Source: a virus. Taken from it: a stretch of 56,448 bases of DNA. Numbering within the stretch: position 1 is the stretch's first letter; every line of letters begins with the position of its first letter. The translations under genes and the position numbers were made by a program. The stretch covers positions 1 through 56,448 of IMG/VR virus record IMGVR_UViG_3300030098_000047; one strand, 5' to 3'. Positions 44,859 to 54,146 of the stretch are shown here, piece by piece. The notes beneath the pieces were generated by a model. It was not told the origin of the DNA. It saw only the letters and a list, made by a program, of their open reading frames with translations, and did not search any database.

Positions 44859-45057
44859 CAGTCCAACCTTCCATACGCATTGCCCACTCTACATGCTCTA
44901 ACGTAAAAGGTCTACCGTAGTGAGCCTGTACAGCTTCACGTACATAGAATACATCACTGTGGGGTATGTGCAAATCTTCAATGTTACCGTCAAGTACATG
45001 TTTATAAAACTCATCAAGAACATTGTCAGTATATAGTTTTACTGATTTTTTACCCAT
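44851..45057 (-). CDS. Hypothetical protein, first gene of the late unit, 68 aa
   Basis: The frame is open from 45102. The ATG at 45057 gives MGKKSVKLYTDNVLDEFYKH, with IPHSDVFYVREAVQAHYGRP and a helical end. The conserved look suggests a folded small domain. As first gene after the divergent control region it may be regulatory, but no HTH is clear. No good ribosome site is visible for either start. Confidence 0.55.
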   Translation of the reverse strand: MGKKSVKLYTDNVLDEFYKHVLDGNIEDLHIPHSDVFYVREAVQAHYGRPFTLEHVEWAMRMEGWTDG

Positions 45058-45122
45058 TGTCAAGAACTTTCTGCAATTTATTACAAAAAATATTAATTGC
45101 ACTACTCACTTATAGTGTAACA

Positions 45123-45206
45123 TTTAAGTGTATCTTAGTTAAGTATAATTATATTTAAGATATATAATCTTTAAGTGTAATCACTTTAAGTGAGTCTTAG
45201 TTTAGT
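45123..45206. repeat. TTTAAGTG iterons in the late promoter region
   Basis: TTTAAGTG occurs at 45123-45130, 45170-45177 and 45185-45192. The first and third are part of longer 22-base direct repeats (45123-45144 and 45185-45206) that match at 18 positions and start 62 bases apart, close to six helical turns. They lie just downstream of the leftward promoter, so a regulator bound here could block or recruit late transcription. Confidence 0.6.
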
Positions 45207-45214
45207 TATATATA

Positions 45215-45242
45215 GTTTTACACATTTTACAGCCTGTGTCAA
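45215..45242 (-). promoter_or_regulatory. Candidate leftward late promoter
   Basis: Leftward -35 TTGACA (45242-45237), 16 bases, then TAAAAC (45220-45215) as a weaker -10. The same 16-base spacing is used in the capsid promoter. It would start late mRNA about 150 bases before the first late gene. Confidence 0.5.
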
Positions 45243-45455
45243 CCCCCAATCGTAAAAAAACATATTTTCTGTAACCAAGTTGTGTGTATACCACTATGTA
45301 TGCAATGTGGTTAACACTCATTTTTCCTGATCTGTGTAGATATACATACATATATACGCACACCCCCCGTCTGCCCCCTGCCTACCCTGCTGCTCACTAC
45401 GCAATTACGTGCATTATGCAATGCCATGACGTATGGTGACTAGGAATCATCTGAC

Positions 45456-45623
45456 ACATTCCACCATTCCCAGAGGAATGTATTTGTATTCAGTGACTTA
45501 GTTGTCTACAACAACTGTTATACAATCAGTTGCCACTATAAATAGTGTAAGAAGGGCTGACATATCACAACAAGGTTGTGTTGCAATGCCGATGCTTATT
45601 TTTACCCTACCCCTATTGGGGTA
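45456..45623. promoter_or_regulatory. Cluster of five short dyads
   Basis: Perfect inverted arms are ACATTCC/GGAATGT (45456-45481), AGTTGT/ACAACT (45500-45516), CACTAT/ATAGTG (45534-45547), CACAAC/GTTGTG (45566-45580) and TACCCC/GGGGTA (45608-45623). The arms all differ, so these are not copies of one operator. They may be hairpins in an early leader or structures of an origin. Confidence 0.55.
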
Positions 45624-45624
45624 A

Positions 45625-45644
45625 CTGTCCGATGTCGGACACTT
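45625..45644. repeat. 20-base palindromic element, copy 1 (intergenic)
   Basis: CTGTCCGATGTCGGACACTT, with arms TGTCCGA and TCGGACA around a TG centre. It lies in the divergent region, about 230 bases before the first early gene, and is identical to the reverse complement of copy 4. Confidence 0.9.
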
Positions 45645-45800
45645 GGAACAAACAGAGAACTTGAACCTCGTGTGAGTTTGGCGCATGTACTTCAGAACAC
45701 TGAAGGTGTTCTTGCAGTCACCTGTGAAACGGCAAGCGCAGAGGATCACGTGAAGCAGCAACTCAAACTTATACTATCTTCTATACGTTTTTAGTGATAA

Positions 45801-45834
45801 TATATATCTCACTTTAGGGTGAGAGATATATATT
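45801..45834 (+). promoter_or_regulatory. Leader hairpin before the first early gene
   Basis: TATATATCTCAC, loop TTTAGG, then GTGAGAGATATATA pair with a two-base bulge. It sits 38-70 bases upstream of the ATG at 45872, after a -10-like GATAAT. It may be an operator or a leader RNA structure. Confidence 0.45.
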
Positions 45835-45871
45835 CTCACATAAAAACTGAAGATAGATAAAGGAGGCCACC

Positions 45872-46474
45872 ATGGCAAAATCAGTTTCAATCAGCAAGTC
45901 AACTAAAGAAGGAACTTCTTTGGACACTCTAGTAAAAGAAGGCAAAGCCTTATACTCAATCTGGAGACAGACTAACAGTCTGAAAGACTCAACAAAAGCC
46001 AAGGGCTTTGATACAAGGCTTGGTAAACTCTTACAAGAGTTGAAAGCTCAGTCACCACTAGATAGTGGTCAAATCAGCAGACAAACTTTGGCAACATATC
46101 ATGTTGACAAGATTGACAGAAGAAGAAGAGCAGAAGCTCTTTGGTTCGTTGAAAACGAAACTGAGTGTCGTGACTTTATGAAATCCTCAAAGAAAGGATT
46201 CACTTCACTTTCTGCTTTACAGAAAGCAATGGCTAAAGCTTCTAAAGAAGCCAAGGCAAACAGCGAAGCTGAAGCTACTACTGAGGAACCTTCTAAAGAA
46301 GAAGTGTCCGATGTCGGACAGTCTAAGTCAAAACCATCTAAAGATGATATCGTGAAAAGTATCATCAAAGCTTGTCAATACTCTGGTATTGATTTACTTG
46401 ACATTGCTGAAGCATTGATGGAAATTGATACAGTCAGCGAAGCTGAAGAAGCGGAAACAAAGGTAGCAGCGTAA
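45872..46474 (+). CDS. First early protein, unknown function, 200 aa
   Basis: A strong AAAGGAGG precedes the ATG, so high expression is likely. An N-terminal helical domain of about 115 residues (LVKEGKALYSIWRQTNSLKD; SRQTLATYHVDKIDRRRRAE) is joined by an acidic low-complexity linker to a C-terminal helix pair (DDIVKSIIKACQYSGIDLLD). The HTH-like look of the first domain is not convincing enough to name. The linker contains the in-frame 20-base palindromic element, translated as VSDVGQ. As the first early gene it may act on host functions or transcription. Confidence 0.7.
   Translation: MAKSVSISKSTKEGTSLDTLVKEGKALYSIWRQTNSLKDSTKAKGFDTRLGKLLQELKAQSPLDSGQISRQTLATYHVDKIDRRRRAEALWFVENETECRDFMKSSKKGFTSLSALQKAMAKASKEAKANSEAEATTEEPSKEEVSDVGQSKSKPSKDDIVKSIIKACQYSGIDLLDIAEALMEIDTVSEAEEAETKVAA
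46303..46322. repeat. 20-base palindromic element, copy 2 (inside the first early gene)
   Basis: The core TGTCCGATGTCGGACA is at 46305-46320, in inverted orientation by its flanks (AG before, GT after). It is translated in frame as VSDVGQ in the linker of the 200-residue protein. Confidence 0.9.
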
Positions 46475-46482
46475 GCTGTTAC

Positions 46483-46500
46483 CACTTTAAACGGAGTTTA
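46483..46500 (+). repeat. Duplicated ribosome-site leader, copy A
   Basis: CACTTTAAACGGAGTTTA, identical to 47035-47052. It contains the ribosome site (CGGAG) of the gene starting at 46504 and a small inverted repeat TAAAC-GGA-GTTTA, and both copies are followed by ATGCAAG. Confidence 0.85.
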
Positions 46501-46503
46501 ACA

Positions 46504-46743
46504 ATGCAAGATTATTCTTATTTCAGTGATTTACACAAAGACGTCTATGGCTTTAGGCCACGTAACATTCAGCCTACTGCTGAATTGATGGACTATTTAC
46601 AGTCTGAACTTGATCGTCAGATCAAGGAAGAACGTGAAGAACGTCAAAGAGAAATTGACATATGTATGTCAGTCGGGGCAGTGGACGAAGAACAAGCTTT
46701 GCATTGGATAGATCAAGCTGAGTATTCAGCTTATTGGGGATAG
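46504..46743 (+). CDS. KDVYGFRPR-motif protein, 79 aa
   Basis: The block YFSDLHKDVYGFRPRNIQPT is found in many small marine and enterobacterial phage proteins without known function. A long charged helix follows (LQSELDRQIKEEREERQREI), then a short acidic end. Its leader duplicates that of the gene at 47055. Confidence 0.65.
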   Translation: MQDYSYFSDLHKDVYGFRPRNIQPTAELMDYLQSELDRQIKEEREERQREIDICMSVGAVDEEQALHWIDQAEYSAYWG

Positions 46744-46744
46744 T

Positions 46745-46930
46745 ATGAAATACATACAAATGAATAACAGGCGTTACAATACGTCATCTATGCGACTAGT
46801 CGAAAGACTAGAAGAAGCGACTAGACCTATTAGTCGTAAGGAAGAATTGCAGCGTAAGCTGTTTCAAGAAAAGATGAAACGGTATGGTTCTAACAGTGTC
46901 AAGGACACTGGGTGGTATGTTGTCGAATAA
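46745..46930 (+). CDS. Hypothetical basic protein, 61 aa
   Basis: It starts two bases after the previous stop. Charged helix in the middle (RPISRKEELQRKLFQEKMKR). No family was recognised. The DNA around 46792-46835 has short repeated GACTAG runs that form small hairpins within the gene. Confidence 0.55.
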   Translation: MKYIQMNNRRYNTSSMRLVERLEEATRPISRKEELQRKLFQEKMKRYGSNSVKDTGWYVVE

Positions 46931-46949
46931 CAACTTTAATAGTCTCATA

Positions 46950-46990
46950 GTTATATAACACTTGAAATATATATGAAAGTGTTATATAAC
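46950..46990. promoter_or_regulatory. 14-base dyad made of two self-palindromic GTTATATAAC boxes
   Basis: GTTATATAACACTT (46950-46963), 13 bases, AAGTGTTATATAAC (46977-46990) is a perfect inverted repeat. Each arm contains the 10-base palindrome GTTATATAAC, the two copies starting 31 bases apart, close to three helical turns. This suits paired operator half-sites or a stable hairpin. There is no T-run after it, so it is not a standard terminator. Confidence 0.65.
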
Positions 46991-47020
46991 ATATGTAGAC
47001 ATTAACACTATAACTGAAAC

Positions 47021-47040
47021 AGTCCGATGTCGGACACTTT
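47021..47040. repeat. 20-base palindromic element, copy 3 (leader of the gene at 47055)
   Basis: AGTCCGATGTCGGACACTTT: the core matches copy 1 except for A in place of T at the left edge. It ends about 15 bases before the ATG and overlaps the duplicated leader. In RNA it could form a 5-base-pair hairpin with loop AUGU next to the ribosome site. Confidence 0.9.
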
Positions 47041-47052
47041 AAACGGAGTTTA
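47035..47052 (+). repeat. Duplicated ribosome-site leader, copy B
   Basis: Identical to 46483-46500. Here the palindromic element abuts its left end, while copy A has no such element, so one was gained or lost after duplication. Confidence 0.85.
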
Positions 47053-47054
47053 TT

Positions 47055-47249
47055 ATGCAAGTTGAAAAAAATTCTAGAGACTTTGTGTTTGAATTAATAA
47101 GCAGAACATACGAGAGCCATGAGAGCATGTTAAAAATGTGCCTAAAGTATATGTCAACGGATGACGTAACAGATATGTTGGCATACAACGAATGTTTAGG
47201 TGGTTGGACTGAAGAATATTTAGAAGAATTTGGAATAAGGAATGTATAA
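47055..47249 (+). CDS. Hypothetical acidic protein, 64 aa
   Basis: The product is helical and acidic (FVFELISRTYESHESMLKMC). Its leader carries palindromic copy 3 and the duplicated ribosome site. The stop shares a base with the next ATG. No family was recognised. Confidence 0.6.
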   Translation: MQVEKNSRDFVFELISRTYESHESMLKMCLKYMSTDDVTDMLAYNECLGGWTEEYLEEFGIRNV

Positions 47250-47488
47250 TGATACATAAAATCGAACATGTAGATGATGGCTTTGTGAGAGTTTACAAAG
47301 CATCTGTTATCAATGGCAATATCAATTCGATGGTATTACCTACACGTCAAGGTGAACTTGAGTACTGGGAAGATAGTGGTACTTTAGTGCAAGATGCCTT
47401 TCCACACTTTACATCAGAGCAACGTGAGTTTCTCATATCTGGACTTACACCTGATGAATGGAATGAATTGTTTTCGGAGGAAGCATAA
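47249..47488 (+). CDS. Hypothetical protein, 79 aa
   Basis: Beta-rich first half (DGFVRVYKASVINGNINSMV) and helical acidic second half (SEQREFLISGLTPDEWNELF). TAATG junctions on both sides. No family was recognised. Confidence 0.6.
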   Translation: MIHKIEHVDDGFVRVYKASVINGNINSMVLPTRQGELEYWEDSGTLVQDAFPHFTSEQREFLISGLTPDEWNELFSEEA

Positions 47489-48072
47489 TGTCTGTAAGAC
47501 AAATATTAAAAGTTTATCGTTCAGCTACGGCTGATGAAATTGATTACGGCATGAAATGGTACGCCATTGCCAAGCGTGACAGCACTAAGGTAGCCAAGGA
47601 ATTTGGTATCAGTGTAAACACTGTTGTCGGTGTCGTTGCTGCACTATCCCCTTTGATGAATTGGAATGTCAATATCAAGTCTGCACGTATTCTAATTGAG
47701 TGCTTTGTCAATGGTGGTGCTATGGACGATGTAATCTTGTCTGGCTATCCACAGAACAAGCTAAAGGCTTGGGAAATGCTTGAACAAAAAATGGTTCGCA
47801 AGAAAACTATCATGGCTAAACTCAATGGTCAAAAGACTACAGCGTTCTTTGCTAATATTCTTGGCTCTGACGTTGTGACTGTAGACGGTCATGCCAAGAA
47901 CATACATGATGGACTACGTAGGGTTCTCAAGAACAACAACGTAGGTGTCAAGGAATACCGCATCATTGCTGATGCATACTACAAAGCTGCTGACAAGGTG
48001 GGTATTAAAGGTTATCAAATGCAAGCTATCACTTGGGTAGCATGGCGCAGACAACATAACATAGCGAGGTAA
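47488..48072 (+). CDS. HhH-GPD DNA glycosylase-like protein, 194 aa
   Basis: The centre, LNGQKTTAFFANILGSDVVT then VDGHAKNI, parallels the helix-hairpin-helix and catalytic Asp of endonuclease III (GVGRKTA ... AVDTH), with a Lys to Asp distance of 17 against 18. Upstream is VVAALSPLMNWNVN, and downstream QMQAITWVAWRR, both conserved in a large phage family that includes mycobacteriophages. It may remove modified bases or act on DNA in another way. The activity is untested, and the fold call is by motif only. Confidence 0.65.
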   Translation: MSVRQILKVYRSATADEIDYGMKWYAIAKRDSTKVAKEFGISVNTVVGVVAALSPLMNWNVNIKSARILIECFVNGGAMDDVILSGYPQNKLKAWEMLEQKMVRKKTIMAKLNGQKTTAFFANILGSDVVTVDGHAKNIHDGLRRVLKNNNVGVKEYRIIADAYYKAADKVGIKGYQMQAITWVAWRRQHNIAR

Positions 48073-48076
48073 AGTT

Positions 48077-48346
48077 ATGATGGACGATTTATTTAACAAC
48101 GTTAATGTATGGCACAAAGGTAGAAAAATATCTATTGCACAACATTATGATTGCCCTAGTTCTAGGCTCAATGGCGAAGCTGCCATGCAAGAGGTAGGCA
48201 TCGTACCTGATGACGGTGATTGGGGCAACATGACCATTGAAAAGTTTGGTTCAACCCTGACGCATTTAATACAAGTATTGGAAGGAATACGAGATGAAAT
48301 TGACCAAGAGGTACATAACAAATCCAGTGGCGAAAGCGTTGCTTGA
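48077..48346 (+). CDS. Hypothetical protein, 89 aa
   Basis: Mixed composition, with a helical end (EKFGSTLTHLIQVLEGIRDE). No family was recognised. The next small gene starts inside its 3' end. A second ATG directly follows the first, so the start may be 48080. Confidence 0.55.
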   Translation: MMDDLFNNVNVWHKGRKISIAQHYDCPSSRLNGEAAMQEVGIVPDDGDWGNMTIEKFGSTLTHLIQVLEGIRDEIDQEVHNKSSGESVA

Positions 48347-48449
48347 GCAGCGCAAAGCGCCACAGGTAGTGCCACCAAAGAAAGGCACAAAACGCAAGCC
48401 TAGCAAGAAGGAGAAGTACAATGCGTTACGAGATGCAAAACTTTATTAA
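48294..48449 (+). CDS. Small basic protein, 51 aa
   Basis: AAGGA lies 9 bases before the ATG at 48294. The product is basic (KRYITNPVAKALLEQRKAPQ, then PPKKGTKRKPSKKEK). It overlaps the previous gene by 53 bases and the next by 29. Ribosome sites support both overlapped genes, so this is likely a real nested arrangement. Confidence 0.55.
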   Translation: MKLTKRYITNPVAKALLEQRKAPQVVPPKKGTKRKPSKKEKYNALRDAKLY

Positions 48450-48567
48450 GTTTAGCAAGTCGAAGAAAGTGTCCGACATCGGACAGAAACAAAAACGTGA
48501 TAAGCATAAGCTTGATCGTAAGCTTGCACGTAAACAAAAACAAGTAACACGTAAATTAGCAAACTGA
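48421..48567 (+). CDS. Small basic protein containing the palindromic element, 48 aa
   Basis: AAGGAG precedes the ATG at 48421. The product is a basic helix (QKQKRDKHKLDRKLARKQKQ). Residues 17-22 (VSDIGQ) are encoded by copy 4 of the 20-base element. That peptide also occurs in the first early protein as VSDVGQ. The function is unknown. Confidence 0.6.
   Translation: MRYEMQNFIKFSKSKKVSDIGQKQKRDKHKLDRKLARKQKQVTRKLAN
48467..48486. repeat. 20-base palindromic element, copy 4 (inside the 48-residue gene)
   Basis: AAGTGTCCGACATCGGACAG is the exact reverse complement of copy 1 over 20 bases. It is read in frame as VSDIGQ. Confidence 0.9.
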
Positions 48568-48580
48568 AAAGGAGAAAACT

Positions 48581-48811
48581 ATGTTTGTATTATTCGCTAC
48601 TAAATCCCTTAACGATGGCACAAAAGGCTTTCGTTTCAACTTTCTAGGACAGAAAGGATTGCTACGTAAACGTAGTAAAAAGTCTCGTGGCTTTTCACTA
48701 TTCAATCGTGACAAGTGTATGACCGCCCATCATGTAGGCAAATACAGTCTGTATGTTGAGCATAACTATAACCGAAACACAGAACGTAAGTTCTGGCATT
48801 TCGCTGGTTAA
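48581..48811 (+). CDS. Hypothetical basic protein, 76 aa
   Basis: AAAAGGAG precedes the ATG. Beta-rich with basic patches (GQKGLLRKRSKKSRGFSLFN). TAATG junction with the next small gene. No family was recognised. Confidence 0.6.
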   Translation: MFVLFATKSLNDGTKGFRFNFLGQKGLLRKRSKKSRGFSLFNRDKCMTAHHVGKYSLYVEHNYNRNTERKFWHFAG

Positions 48812-48957
48812 TGATGGTAATACGCCATAAGAGTAAGTACATTGTGTACAGTGATGATGGGCATGTGCTCGTCATCACACGATACAAGAACGTAGCTAGA
48901 CAAATTATTGAGGATTATAAAAATGATAAAAGTAGAAGTATACTTCAACCTACATAA
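48811..48957 (+). CDS. Small hypothetical protein, 48 aa
   Basis: The ATG shares a base with the previous stop. The product (MMVIRHKSKYIVYSDDGHVL, then VITRYKNVARQIIEDY) looks like a compact beta-beta-alpha unit. The next gene starts inside its 3' end. Confidence 0.55.
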   Translation: MMVIRHKSKYIVYSDDGHVLVITRYKNVARQIIEDYKNDKSRSILQPT

Positions 48958-49291
48958 ACGTGTATTTTCTATTCGTTCCTGTAGGACTGGACGTGTTATA
49001 CATCATGCAAAAGATGTGAATATTGTGAACCCAAAGTTTGTGGTTCGTGAAGGTGGCAGACAGCGTGTACTACGTGAGCGTAAGAAGAATGTTCATGCCT
49101 TTGTTCGTGGTAATCTCACTACCTTTAAAGATAGTCCAAGTCATCTTGCAGATACCATTGGATATAATCCATACAAGTATGACAGCTTTGTAAATGTCAC
49201 AGATGAAGTACCTGTGTACAAAGCATTTCGTGCATGGTTAAATGTGGATGATAATAATGTACCAACAATACAAGCAGAAGGAGTACAATAA
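48923..49291 (+). CDS. Conserved phage hypothetical protein, 122 aa
   Basis: The ATG at 48923 has GAGG upstream and is preferred to the TTG at 48908. The stretches VEVYFNLHKRVFSIRSCRTG, GGRQRVLRERKKNVHAFVRG and IGYNPYKYDSFV recur in many phage proteins of this size, none with known function. Basic and beta-rich, possibly RNA-binding. Confidence 0.65.
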   Translation: MIKVEVYFNLHKRVFSIRSCRTGRVIHHAKDVNIVNPKFVVREGGRQRVLRERKKNVHAFVRGNLTTFKDSPSHLADTIGYNPYKYDSFVNVTDEVPVYKAFRAWLNVDDNNVPTIQAEGVQ

Positions 49292-53058: not shown

Positions 53059-54146
53059 TGGTAGCACTGCCTAGATTTGTACAGAAACGAGTGTCACTTT
53101 CGGGTGACACATCGTATCGCTTCAACCCACCACAGAAACTTGTCAACGCAGGTGTTGTGTCACGTGAAGAATTAGGTAATGATCTACGTGTAAGTAAACA
53201 GCTTGCAAAGGAGTTAAACAAACAGATAGACGATTGGAGAGAGGAACAGGCAAAGGTAGTGAACATCAAGCCAAGTGGCAAGGTTACTGACCTGATAAAC
53301 TTTTACTATTCTTCTAATGATTTCAATATGTTACGTGAGTCCACAAAGATCGACTACCGATATTTCCTCACCATATTACATCAGACAATGGGGTGTAGGA
53401 AATACAAGGATGTCACACCTAAGATTGCCAAGGCAGCGTATGAGGAATGGGTGTCACGTGGTGTCAGCTTTGCTAACCATACGGCTACCTGTGCCAGTAG
53501 GGTGTACAACTATGCCATACAGATGGAACACGCAGAACAGAACCCATTTACCAAGATCAAACGCAAGAGAAATCAGCAGCGTAAGGTTGTCTGGACACAT
53601 GGTGAAGTCAACAAGTTTCTTGACGTGGCGTACAGTGACTTTGAGTATCGCAACTTAGGGTTGATTGTACACATGGCATACGAGTGGTGTCAGAGGCTTG
53701 GAGACATGCGTAATCTTACATGGGATTGCCTTGACCTCAAGAACCAACAGCTATCTCTGGAGCAAAGCAAGCGTAGAGCACAGGTGTTTCTGCCTATCAG
53801 TGACAACCTCAACGCCATGCTGTTAGAGCAGAAAGCTGACTTTGGTTTTCAACAGTGGGTAGCACCACATCCAAAGCCAAGGTCAGGTAAGTTTGAGCCG
53901 TATGCTATGGAGAGACTGTCCAAGGTTGGACGTAAGGTAATGAGACTGGCTAAACTGTCAGAGGAACTACGCCTTATGGACATACGTAGGACTGGTGTAA
54001 CAGAGATGGTAGACAAGGGTGTGCCTTTGCCACAGATTATGGCGGTGACTGGGCATACACATGTGTCTTCTGTGAAACCATATATGAAACATACATACGA
54101 AAGTGCAAACAACGCCTTGACACAACGTGATACATATATTAAGTGA
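53058..54146 (+). CDS. int: Tyrosine recombinase (integrase)
   Basis: The product has 362 residues with a SAM-like N-terminal core-binding region and a C-terminal catalytic domain. Catalytic residues seen are R213 (CQRLGD), R310 (DIRR), H333 (TGHTH) and Y342 (VKPYMKH). The box II His that normally precedes R310 by three residues is Met307. HMO-2011-type phages carry a similar integrase next to primase and helicase. No repressor, excisionase or tRNA-like attachment site was recognised, so lysogeny is possible but not shown. Confidence 0.9.
   Translation: MVALPRFVQKRVSLSGDTSYRFNPPQKLVNAGVVSREELGNDLRVSKQLAKELNKQIDDWREEQAKVVNIKPSGKVTDLINFYYSSNDFNMLRESTKIDYRYFLTILHQTMGCRKYKDVTPKIAKAAYEEWVSRGVSFANHTATCASRVYNYAIQMEHAEQNPFTKIKRKRNQQRKVVWTHGEVNKFLDVAYSDFEYRNLGLIVHMAYEWCQRLGDMRNLTWDCLDLKNQQLSLEQSKRRAQVFLPISDNLNAMLLEQKADFGFQQWVAPHPKPRSGKFEPYAMERLSKVGRKVMRLAKLSEELRLMDIRRTGVTEMVDKGVPLPQIMAVTGHTHVSSVKPYMKHTYESANNALTQRDTYIK

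Follow-up and report, generated by a model that had tools for sequence, protein, structure and literature searches.

Why does a 20-base palindrome recur four times within about 3 kb of the early region of a phage genome, twice between genes and twice inside them? The question was raised by a reading of the letters alone (hereafter the sequence-only reading) of IMG/VR virus record IMGVR_UViG_3300030098_000047, whose 56,448 nucleotides are the whole stretch analyzed here (the window). It considered an operator series, a hairpin bound by an RNA regulator, or a small mobile palindrome. We propose, from sequence comparisons, that the palindromes are the operators of gp1, the 200-amino-acid product of the first early gene (45872..46474, + strand), whose dimers would repress early transcription, and that the two plausibly form an immunity repressor system. 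We give this proposal a probability of about two in three.

The window is the genome sequence of a temperate-looking Roseobacter phage of the CRP-1/HMO-2011 type. Its DNA is similar over parts to that of the Roseobacter phages CRP-1 and CRP-345 (75–78%), and it encodes a tyrosine integrase, a DnaB-like helicase, a family-A polymerase and a ribonucleotide reductase.

Copies of the palindrome in the window and in related phages

The sequence CTGTCCGATGTCGGACACTT is found on the + strand at 45625–45644 and its exact reverse complement at 48467–48486; in a third copy, the flanks of which are swapped, the 16-bp core spans 46305–46320, and a copy with one mismatch is located at 47020–47039. The common form TGTCCGA(TG/CA)TCGGACA thus begins at 45626, 46305, 47021 and 48470, and the 14-bp core GTCCGANNTCGGAC occurs exactly at 45627, 46306, 47022 and 48471 and at no other place in the window. 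No further copy of the 20-mer was found in the window at up to three mismatches, and 100 dinucleotide shuffles gave none. The sequence-only reading had listed these four copies, seen none elsewhere and considered them not to be expected by chance, in all of which it was right, as it was in the reading frames of the two copies within genes.

Copy 1 (TGTCCGATGTCGGACA, 45626..45641) belongs to the control region of gp1, about 230 bp 5′ of the start of this gene, and a homologous site is present in relatives including HMO-2011 and CRP-1. Copy 2 (46305..46320) is within gp1 itself, where it is read as VSDVGQ in a linker predicted to be disordered. Copy 3 (14-bp core, 47022..47035) stands in a short leader 19 nt 5′ of the start codon of a 64-amino-acid early gene (47055..47249, + strand), which follows directly 3′. 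Copy 4 (48470..48485) is within an early gene for a basic protein of 48 amino acids (48421..48567, + strand), is read as VSDIGQ and has orthologous copies in relatives.

With gp1 as query 24 loci were first collected, and the enlarged set comprises 395 unique sites from 145 loci. In all 24 loci as well as in CRP-1 and CRP-345, GTCCRA-NN-TYGGAC is found 2–8 times in the early region; among the relatives overall the number is 2–9, in the same early region and always alongside gp1. When viral contigs were scanned for the bare palindrome, many unrelated chance matches were obtained together with a set of contigs having several TG- or CA-centered copies, and the latter encode gp1 on the same contig. 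The element was not found in the 50 kb scanned of CRP-2, CRP-603, CRP-207, CRP-3, CRP-212, CRP-738 and HTVC033P, and in these seven HMO-2011-type isolates gp1 was not detected either, whereas CRP-1 and CRP-345 have both. HMO-2011 has a diverged gp1 homologue (gp74, with K at position 114) and, along with it, a diverged operator, GTCCGACAGCGGAC (element AGTCCGACAGCGGACT), which is present in 5 copies and in both orientations.

The palindrome exists in two versions, the G-type GTCCGA..TCGGAC (the window and the relative L126) and the A-type GTCCAA..TTGGAC (most relatives). Nearly all genomes contain a single version, and the outer flank is T..A or A..T depending on the group. A degenerate match in the integrase gene of the window, overlooked in the sequence-only reading (GTCCAAGGTTGGAC, 53918–53931, two mismatches, within ERLSKVGRKV), is conserved in relatives; because it stays A-type even in G-type genomes and hence does not co-evolve with the operators, it is probably a coding coincidence.

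By place, 161 of the unique exact sites are in leaders of early genes, 77 in gp1, 67 in the region 5′ of gp1, 33 in the 48-amino-acid gene and 51 elsewhere. Most of the 208 leader-type sites in the relatives precede the start codon by 18–23 nt, leaving the ribosome site in between. Where the upstream open reading frame could be resolved, the leader site is usually at most 20 nt from its stop codon, as expected for sites within operons rather than at promoters. The stretch occupied by the sites measures about 3 kb in the window and can reach about 14 kb in relatives.

Selection on the site and its covariation with gp1

The site in gp1 is at the same place in 83 of 93 distinct gp1 genes, and in 82 of these it is read in the frame S-x-x-G. 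In all 82 the serine codon is TCC (8% elsewhere in gp1) and the glycine codon GGA (15% elsewhere); the operator class determines whether the middle residue is N or D. Since these codons never vary, selection acts on the nucleic acid, and VSDVGQ, judged from its codons, arises as a side effect of the DNA sequence. The sequence-only reading had suggested that an alignment of homologues might reveal VSDxGQ to be an insertion; in the gp1 homologues the positions are orthologous, the segment is not a mobile insert, and the codons are constant rather than varied.

That finding bears on the proposal of a small mobile palindrome inserted into protein linkers. The palindrome resembles the Rickettsia palindromic elements in that it is read in frame in a linker, which is disordered in gp1. 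It differs from them in being far shorter, in its fixed orthologous positions and in covarying with a protein. The confinement to the early region, the strict positions ahead of ribosome sites and the concerted switching of class described below also speak against mobility. No signature of recent copying or of a target site was seen, and on the orthology and the codons the mobile element was rejected, with hardly any probability left to it.

Is the site recognized as DNA or as RNA? Of the 395 unique sites 315 have AA|TT and 71 GA|TC, and the hybrids GA|TT and AA|TC are not represented at all, although independent change of the half-sites should have produced about 116 of them. Pair 5 is A-T or G-C, apart from one C-G, and is never G-U. 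The center is a pyrimidine-purine step in 95% of the sites (TG 226, CA 81, CG 66, TA 2), the outer positions −3 and +3 are A/T in dyad symmetry, and the sites are perfect dyads. Symmetric halves, pyrimidine-purine centers and A/T at −3/+3 are marks of a symmetric protein on a DNA dyad.

The alternative is that the palindrome functions as an RNA hairpin (loop AUGU, ACAU or ACGU) in leaders, with gp1 as translational repressor or activator. It would explain two findings that count against operators on DNA, namely the nearly fixed distance of the leader copies from the start codon, with a ribosome site between that is often held in a covarying mini-hairpin of its own, and the bias of the leader copies for TG on the sense strand (118 TG versus 22 CA, many of them sharing ancestry; the copies 5′ of gp1 are not biased in this way, 18:32). 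These two points leave the RNA reading some probability. Against it speak the lack of G-U or A-C hybrids, the symmetric A/T at ±3 and a central step that may be TG, CA or CG; in HMO-2011 the leaders use both orientations, and for the copies in the middle of genes and about 230 nt 5′ of gp1 a role in translation is not obvious. The symmetry, the lack of G-U intermediates, the pyrimidine-purine centers and the two orientations favor DNA, and of the hairpin put forward in the sequence-only reading a rather improbable alternative is left.

Evidence for a connection to gp1 came from a scan of all columns of the gp1 alignment in 32 genomes. Column 114 is perfectly associated with the operator class (T with the A-type, S or D with the G-type), followed by columns 121 and 118, if column 147, which corresponds to a codon of the operator itself, is set aside. 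In the enlarged set 82 of 83 distinct proteins fit the rule for residue 114, with S and once D going with the G-type (Fisher p ~1e-15, ignoring relatedness); G-type genomes make up only 15 of the 83. When these columns were left out of the tree, at least 5 switches of class fell on supported branches, each of them accompanied by the matching change at residue 114; of 7 supported independent switches in the enlarged set 6 were followed, none was opposed and one left the residue unchanged (p = 0.03). Neighboring genes have no comparable column of few states, except for the operator codon in the 48-amino-acid gene and one column with 10 states (set of 24 sequences).

The three residues, spaced i, i+4, i+7 as in a typical recognition helix, form one face of a helix predicted to extend from 113 to 134 (46208..46273, + strand), which the column scan and the AlphaFold secondary structure together single out as the putative recognition helix; in the window the proposed specificity residues are S114 (46211–46213), K118 (46223–46225) and A121 (46232–46234). 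Because they share this face, gp1, which is encoded on the contigs with several copies of the element, is very probably the cognate binder of the palindromes. The operator series proposed in the sequence-only reading has thereby gained strong support: the sites are at homologous places in all relatives encoding gp1, are almost invariant and covary with one helix of that protein.

The covariation also disposes of the idea that the phages exploit the operator of a host transcription factor, for which it could be said that the motif is common to many phages. Pairs of gp1 that are 85–87% identical differ in having G- or A-type sites, in step with the residue of the phage protein, and isolates of the same group lacking gp1 lack the motif. 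A host factor was therefore rejected as extremely improbable.

Proposed mechanism and its rivals

AlphaFold predicts for gp1 a helical domain (modeled with confidence; predicted local distance difference test score, pLDDT, 85; predicted template modeling score, pTM, 0.77), a disordered linker from 134 to 152 (46271..46327, + strand), which contains copy 2, and C-terminal helices. The N-terminal, all-helical domain would read the half-site GTCC(R)A via residues 114, 118 and 121, the C-terminal helices may dimerize the protein, and one dimer would occupy each dyad ANNGTCCRA-YR-TYGGACNNT, located in the control region 5′ of gp1, inside gp1, inside the 48-amino-acid gene or just before the ribosome-binding sites of early genes. 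The most likely effect of bound gp1 would be to repress the early genes, at the start of transcription 5′ of gp1 or close to it and as a roadblock further down, and through the sites at its own gene it would be autoregulated. A simple sigma-70 scan gave 10 matches versus 13.5 expected, none of them convincing as an early promoter close to the sites.

The nearest counterpart is mycobacteriophage L5 of cluster A, in which a repressor encoded by an early gene binds to many sites of 13–14 bp located within promoters and short gaps between genes, and the site motif differs between cluster A phages along with the specificity of the repressor (PMC6550527, PMC9283540). As in L5, many near-identical sites are dispersed over the early region, with one regulator encoded by an early gene, and as in such operator/stoperator systems the site diverges between phages together with the regulator, here judged from sequence covariation. 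From this likeness in site geography we infer that gp1 represses initiation near the 5′ site and elongation at the dispersed ones, its own gene included. The L5 sites are asymmetric, bound by monomers, strongly oriented and number 20–30 per genome, whereas those of gp1 are palindromic, 2–9 per genome, restricted to the early arm and in two cases within genes, one of them the regulator's own. Neither to L5 gp71 nor to the repressor of TipsytheTRex, the structure of which has been solved, was a relation of gp1 detected (PDB profile, PHROG and Foldseek searches). It is most likely, on the sequence evidence, that a protein unrelated to the L5 repressor acts on palindromic sites and yet represses in a stoperator-like manner.

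In Streptomyces phage phiC31 a single phage repressor, c, acts on palindromic operators (conserved inverted repeats) dispersed through the early region. The operators of lambda CI and Cro are likewise palindromes of about 17–20 bp with a dimer-type dyad and a recognition helix per half-site, as proposed here for gp1. Unlike the lambda operators, those of gp1 are not clustered at one switch, and gp1 has neither a Pfam helix-turn-helix match nor a fold match in the PDB.

Several findings weigh against our proposal. No known fold was recognized for gp1: Foldseek gave no PDB match with the full length or the domain (best E for the domain 1.6), so that a DNA-binding fold is putative. Sites of both classes are mixed in the genomes L016, L037, L061, L111, L144, L223 and L224; L181 breaks the rule, having S114 with A-type sites (it carries R121); and a hold-out of 56 contigs is mostly A-type and has little power alone. 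Two contig scans of 84,980 reference genomes revealed no prophage bearing gp1 and no host copy. CRP-3, a phage of the same group for which integration at tRNA-Met has been reported (PMC6918029), has neither the element nor a detected gp1. Finally, the position of gp1 as first early gene would also suit an autoregulator of the lytic phase.

The last three points are also the case for the most serious rival, in which gp1 binds the operators without being an immunity repressor and serves instead to shut down or tune early genes in lytic growth, in the manner of Cro or an early switch, and to regulate itself; gp1 opens the early block with one site 5′ of it and one inside. Since an integrase is retained in every one of these phages, however, some repressor is to be expected, and Pfam scans covering the early genes of the window disclosed no other repressor-like domain. 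Moreover, one protein can serve both functions, so that this reading, which we consider unlikely though the best of the alternatives, is compatible with a role in immunity. That gp1 is the immunity repressor of the HMO-2011-type phages carrying it, with a role in lysogeny, is plausible.

A function in partition or replication, with parS- or iteron-like sites and gp1 as centromere or origin binder, would fit short palindromes that recur in conserved non-coding sequence next to the gene for the protein presumed to bind them. The sites are dispersed rather than clustered and lie mostly in gene leaders; gp1 has no similarity to ParB (Pfam, PDB), and no partition gene was found among the window proteins scanned. 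We regard this function as very improbable.

Neighboring elements and biological meaning

A profile search of gp1 against the PDB gave nothing better than E = 0.26 and no repressor among the matches, and there was no relative in Pfam or PHROGs, nor any helix-turn-helix match among the Pfam families listed for 35 members. The sole match in BFVD is S4S2E1 (E = 2.5e-5), which is probably gp74 of HMO-2011. On this evidence gp1 represents an undescribed protein family. Another early gene of the window (48908–49291) matches the Pfam family Phage_L5_gp82, named after gp82 of mycobacteriophage L5 (E = 6e-34), and gp02 of HMO-2011 is annotated likewise.

The gp1 control region contains two conserved non-coding blocks, AACTGTTATACAATCAGTTGCCA (45513..45535), which among the isolates compared is present in gp1-bearing phages only, and GAAACGGCAAGCGCAGAGGAT (45726..45746), between copy 1 and gp1, which is identical in HMO-2011; this conserved sequence could be a promoter, attP or a regulatory RNA. 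Directly 5′ of the ribosome site the gp1 leader forms a long predicted hairpin (45770..45868, + strand; −35 kcal/mol for the 113-nt stretch of the window). It is conserved in relatives with compensatory changes in 13 of 20 pairs and, unlike the operators, varies freely, which makes it a candidate for a genuine RNA structure, possibly an RNase III site, an attenuator or a device of translational control.

Mini-hairpins presenting the ribosome-binding GGA in a 3-nt loop are seen in the window at 46487–46501 and 47040–47052 and in leaders of relatives, in the forms TTAAAC[GGA]GTTTAA, TAATC[GGA]GATTA and TAATAC[GGA]GTATTA and also as AAG[GAA]CTT types. Of 164 operator leaders 42% have stems of at least 5 pairs, compared with 5% of shuffles, and the stems covary; before the other genes of the window mini-hairpins are rare.

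A second palindrome, TTGTGATCACAA, is found twice beside the upstream operator of CRP-345 (L150, 4494 and 4568) and similarly in CRP-1 (L149, ~3818 and ~3894); it is possibly the site of another regulator. The inverted repeat GTTATATAACAC...GTGTTATATAAC (46950–46993), 5′ of copy 3, is consistent with a promoter as well as a terminator, and a similar AT-rich sequence precedes several leader operators in relatives. Terminator-like calls on the minus strand at the sites are the palindromes themselves beside an A-rich sense sequence, and a search of Rfam with 45000–48700 gave no match.

For part of the HMO-2011-type group these results provide a specific, proposed regulator together with its recognition site. 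The correspondence of gp1 residue 114 and the operator base is proposed to be a natural amino-acid-to-base code, which can be tested in vitro and would make immunity groups predictable from metagenomic sequence alone. One base pair switched in concert across all dispersed sites, and this repeatedly, offers an uncommonly clear example of coevolution between regulator and operator. As a tentative extension, to which we give somewhat less than even odds, the phages may fall into two mutually blind immunity classes (S114 with G-type and T114 with A-type sites), each change of class having come about, several times over, through a joint switch of one helix and the full set of operators.

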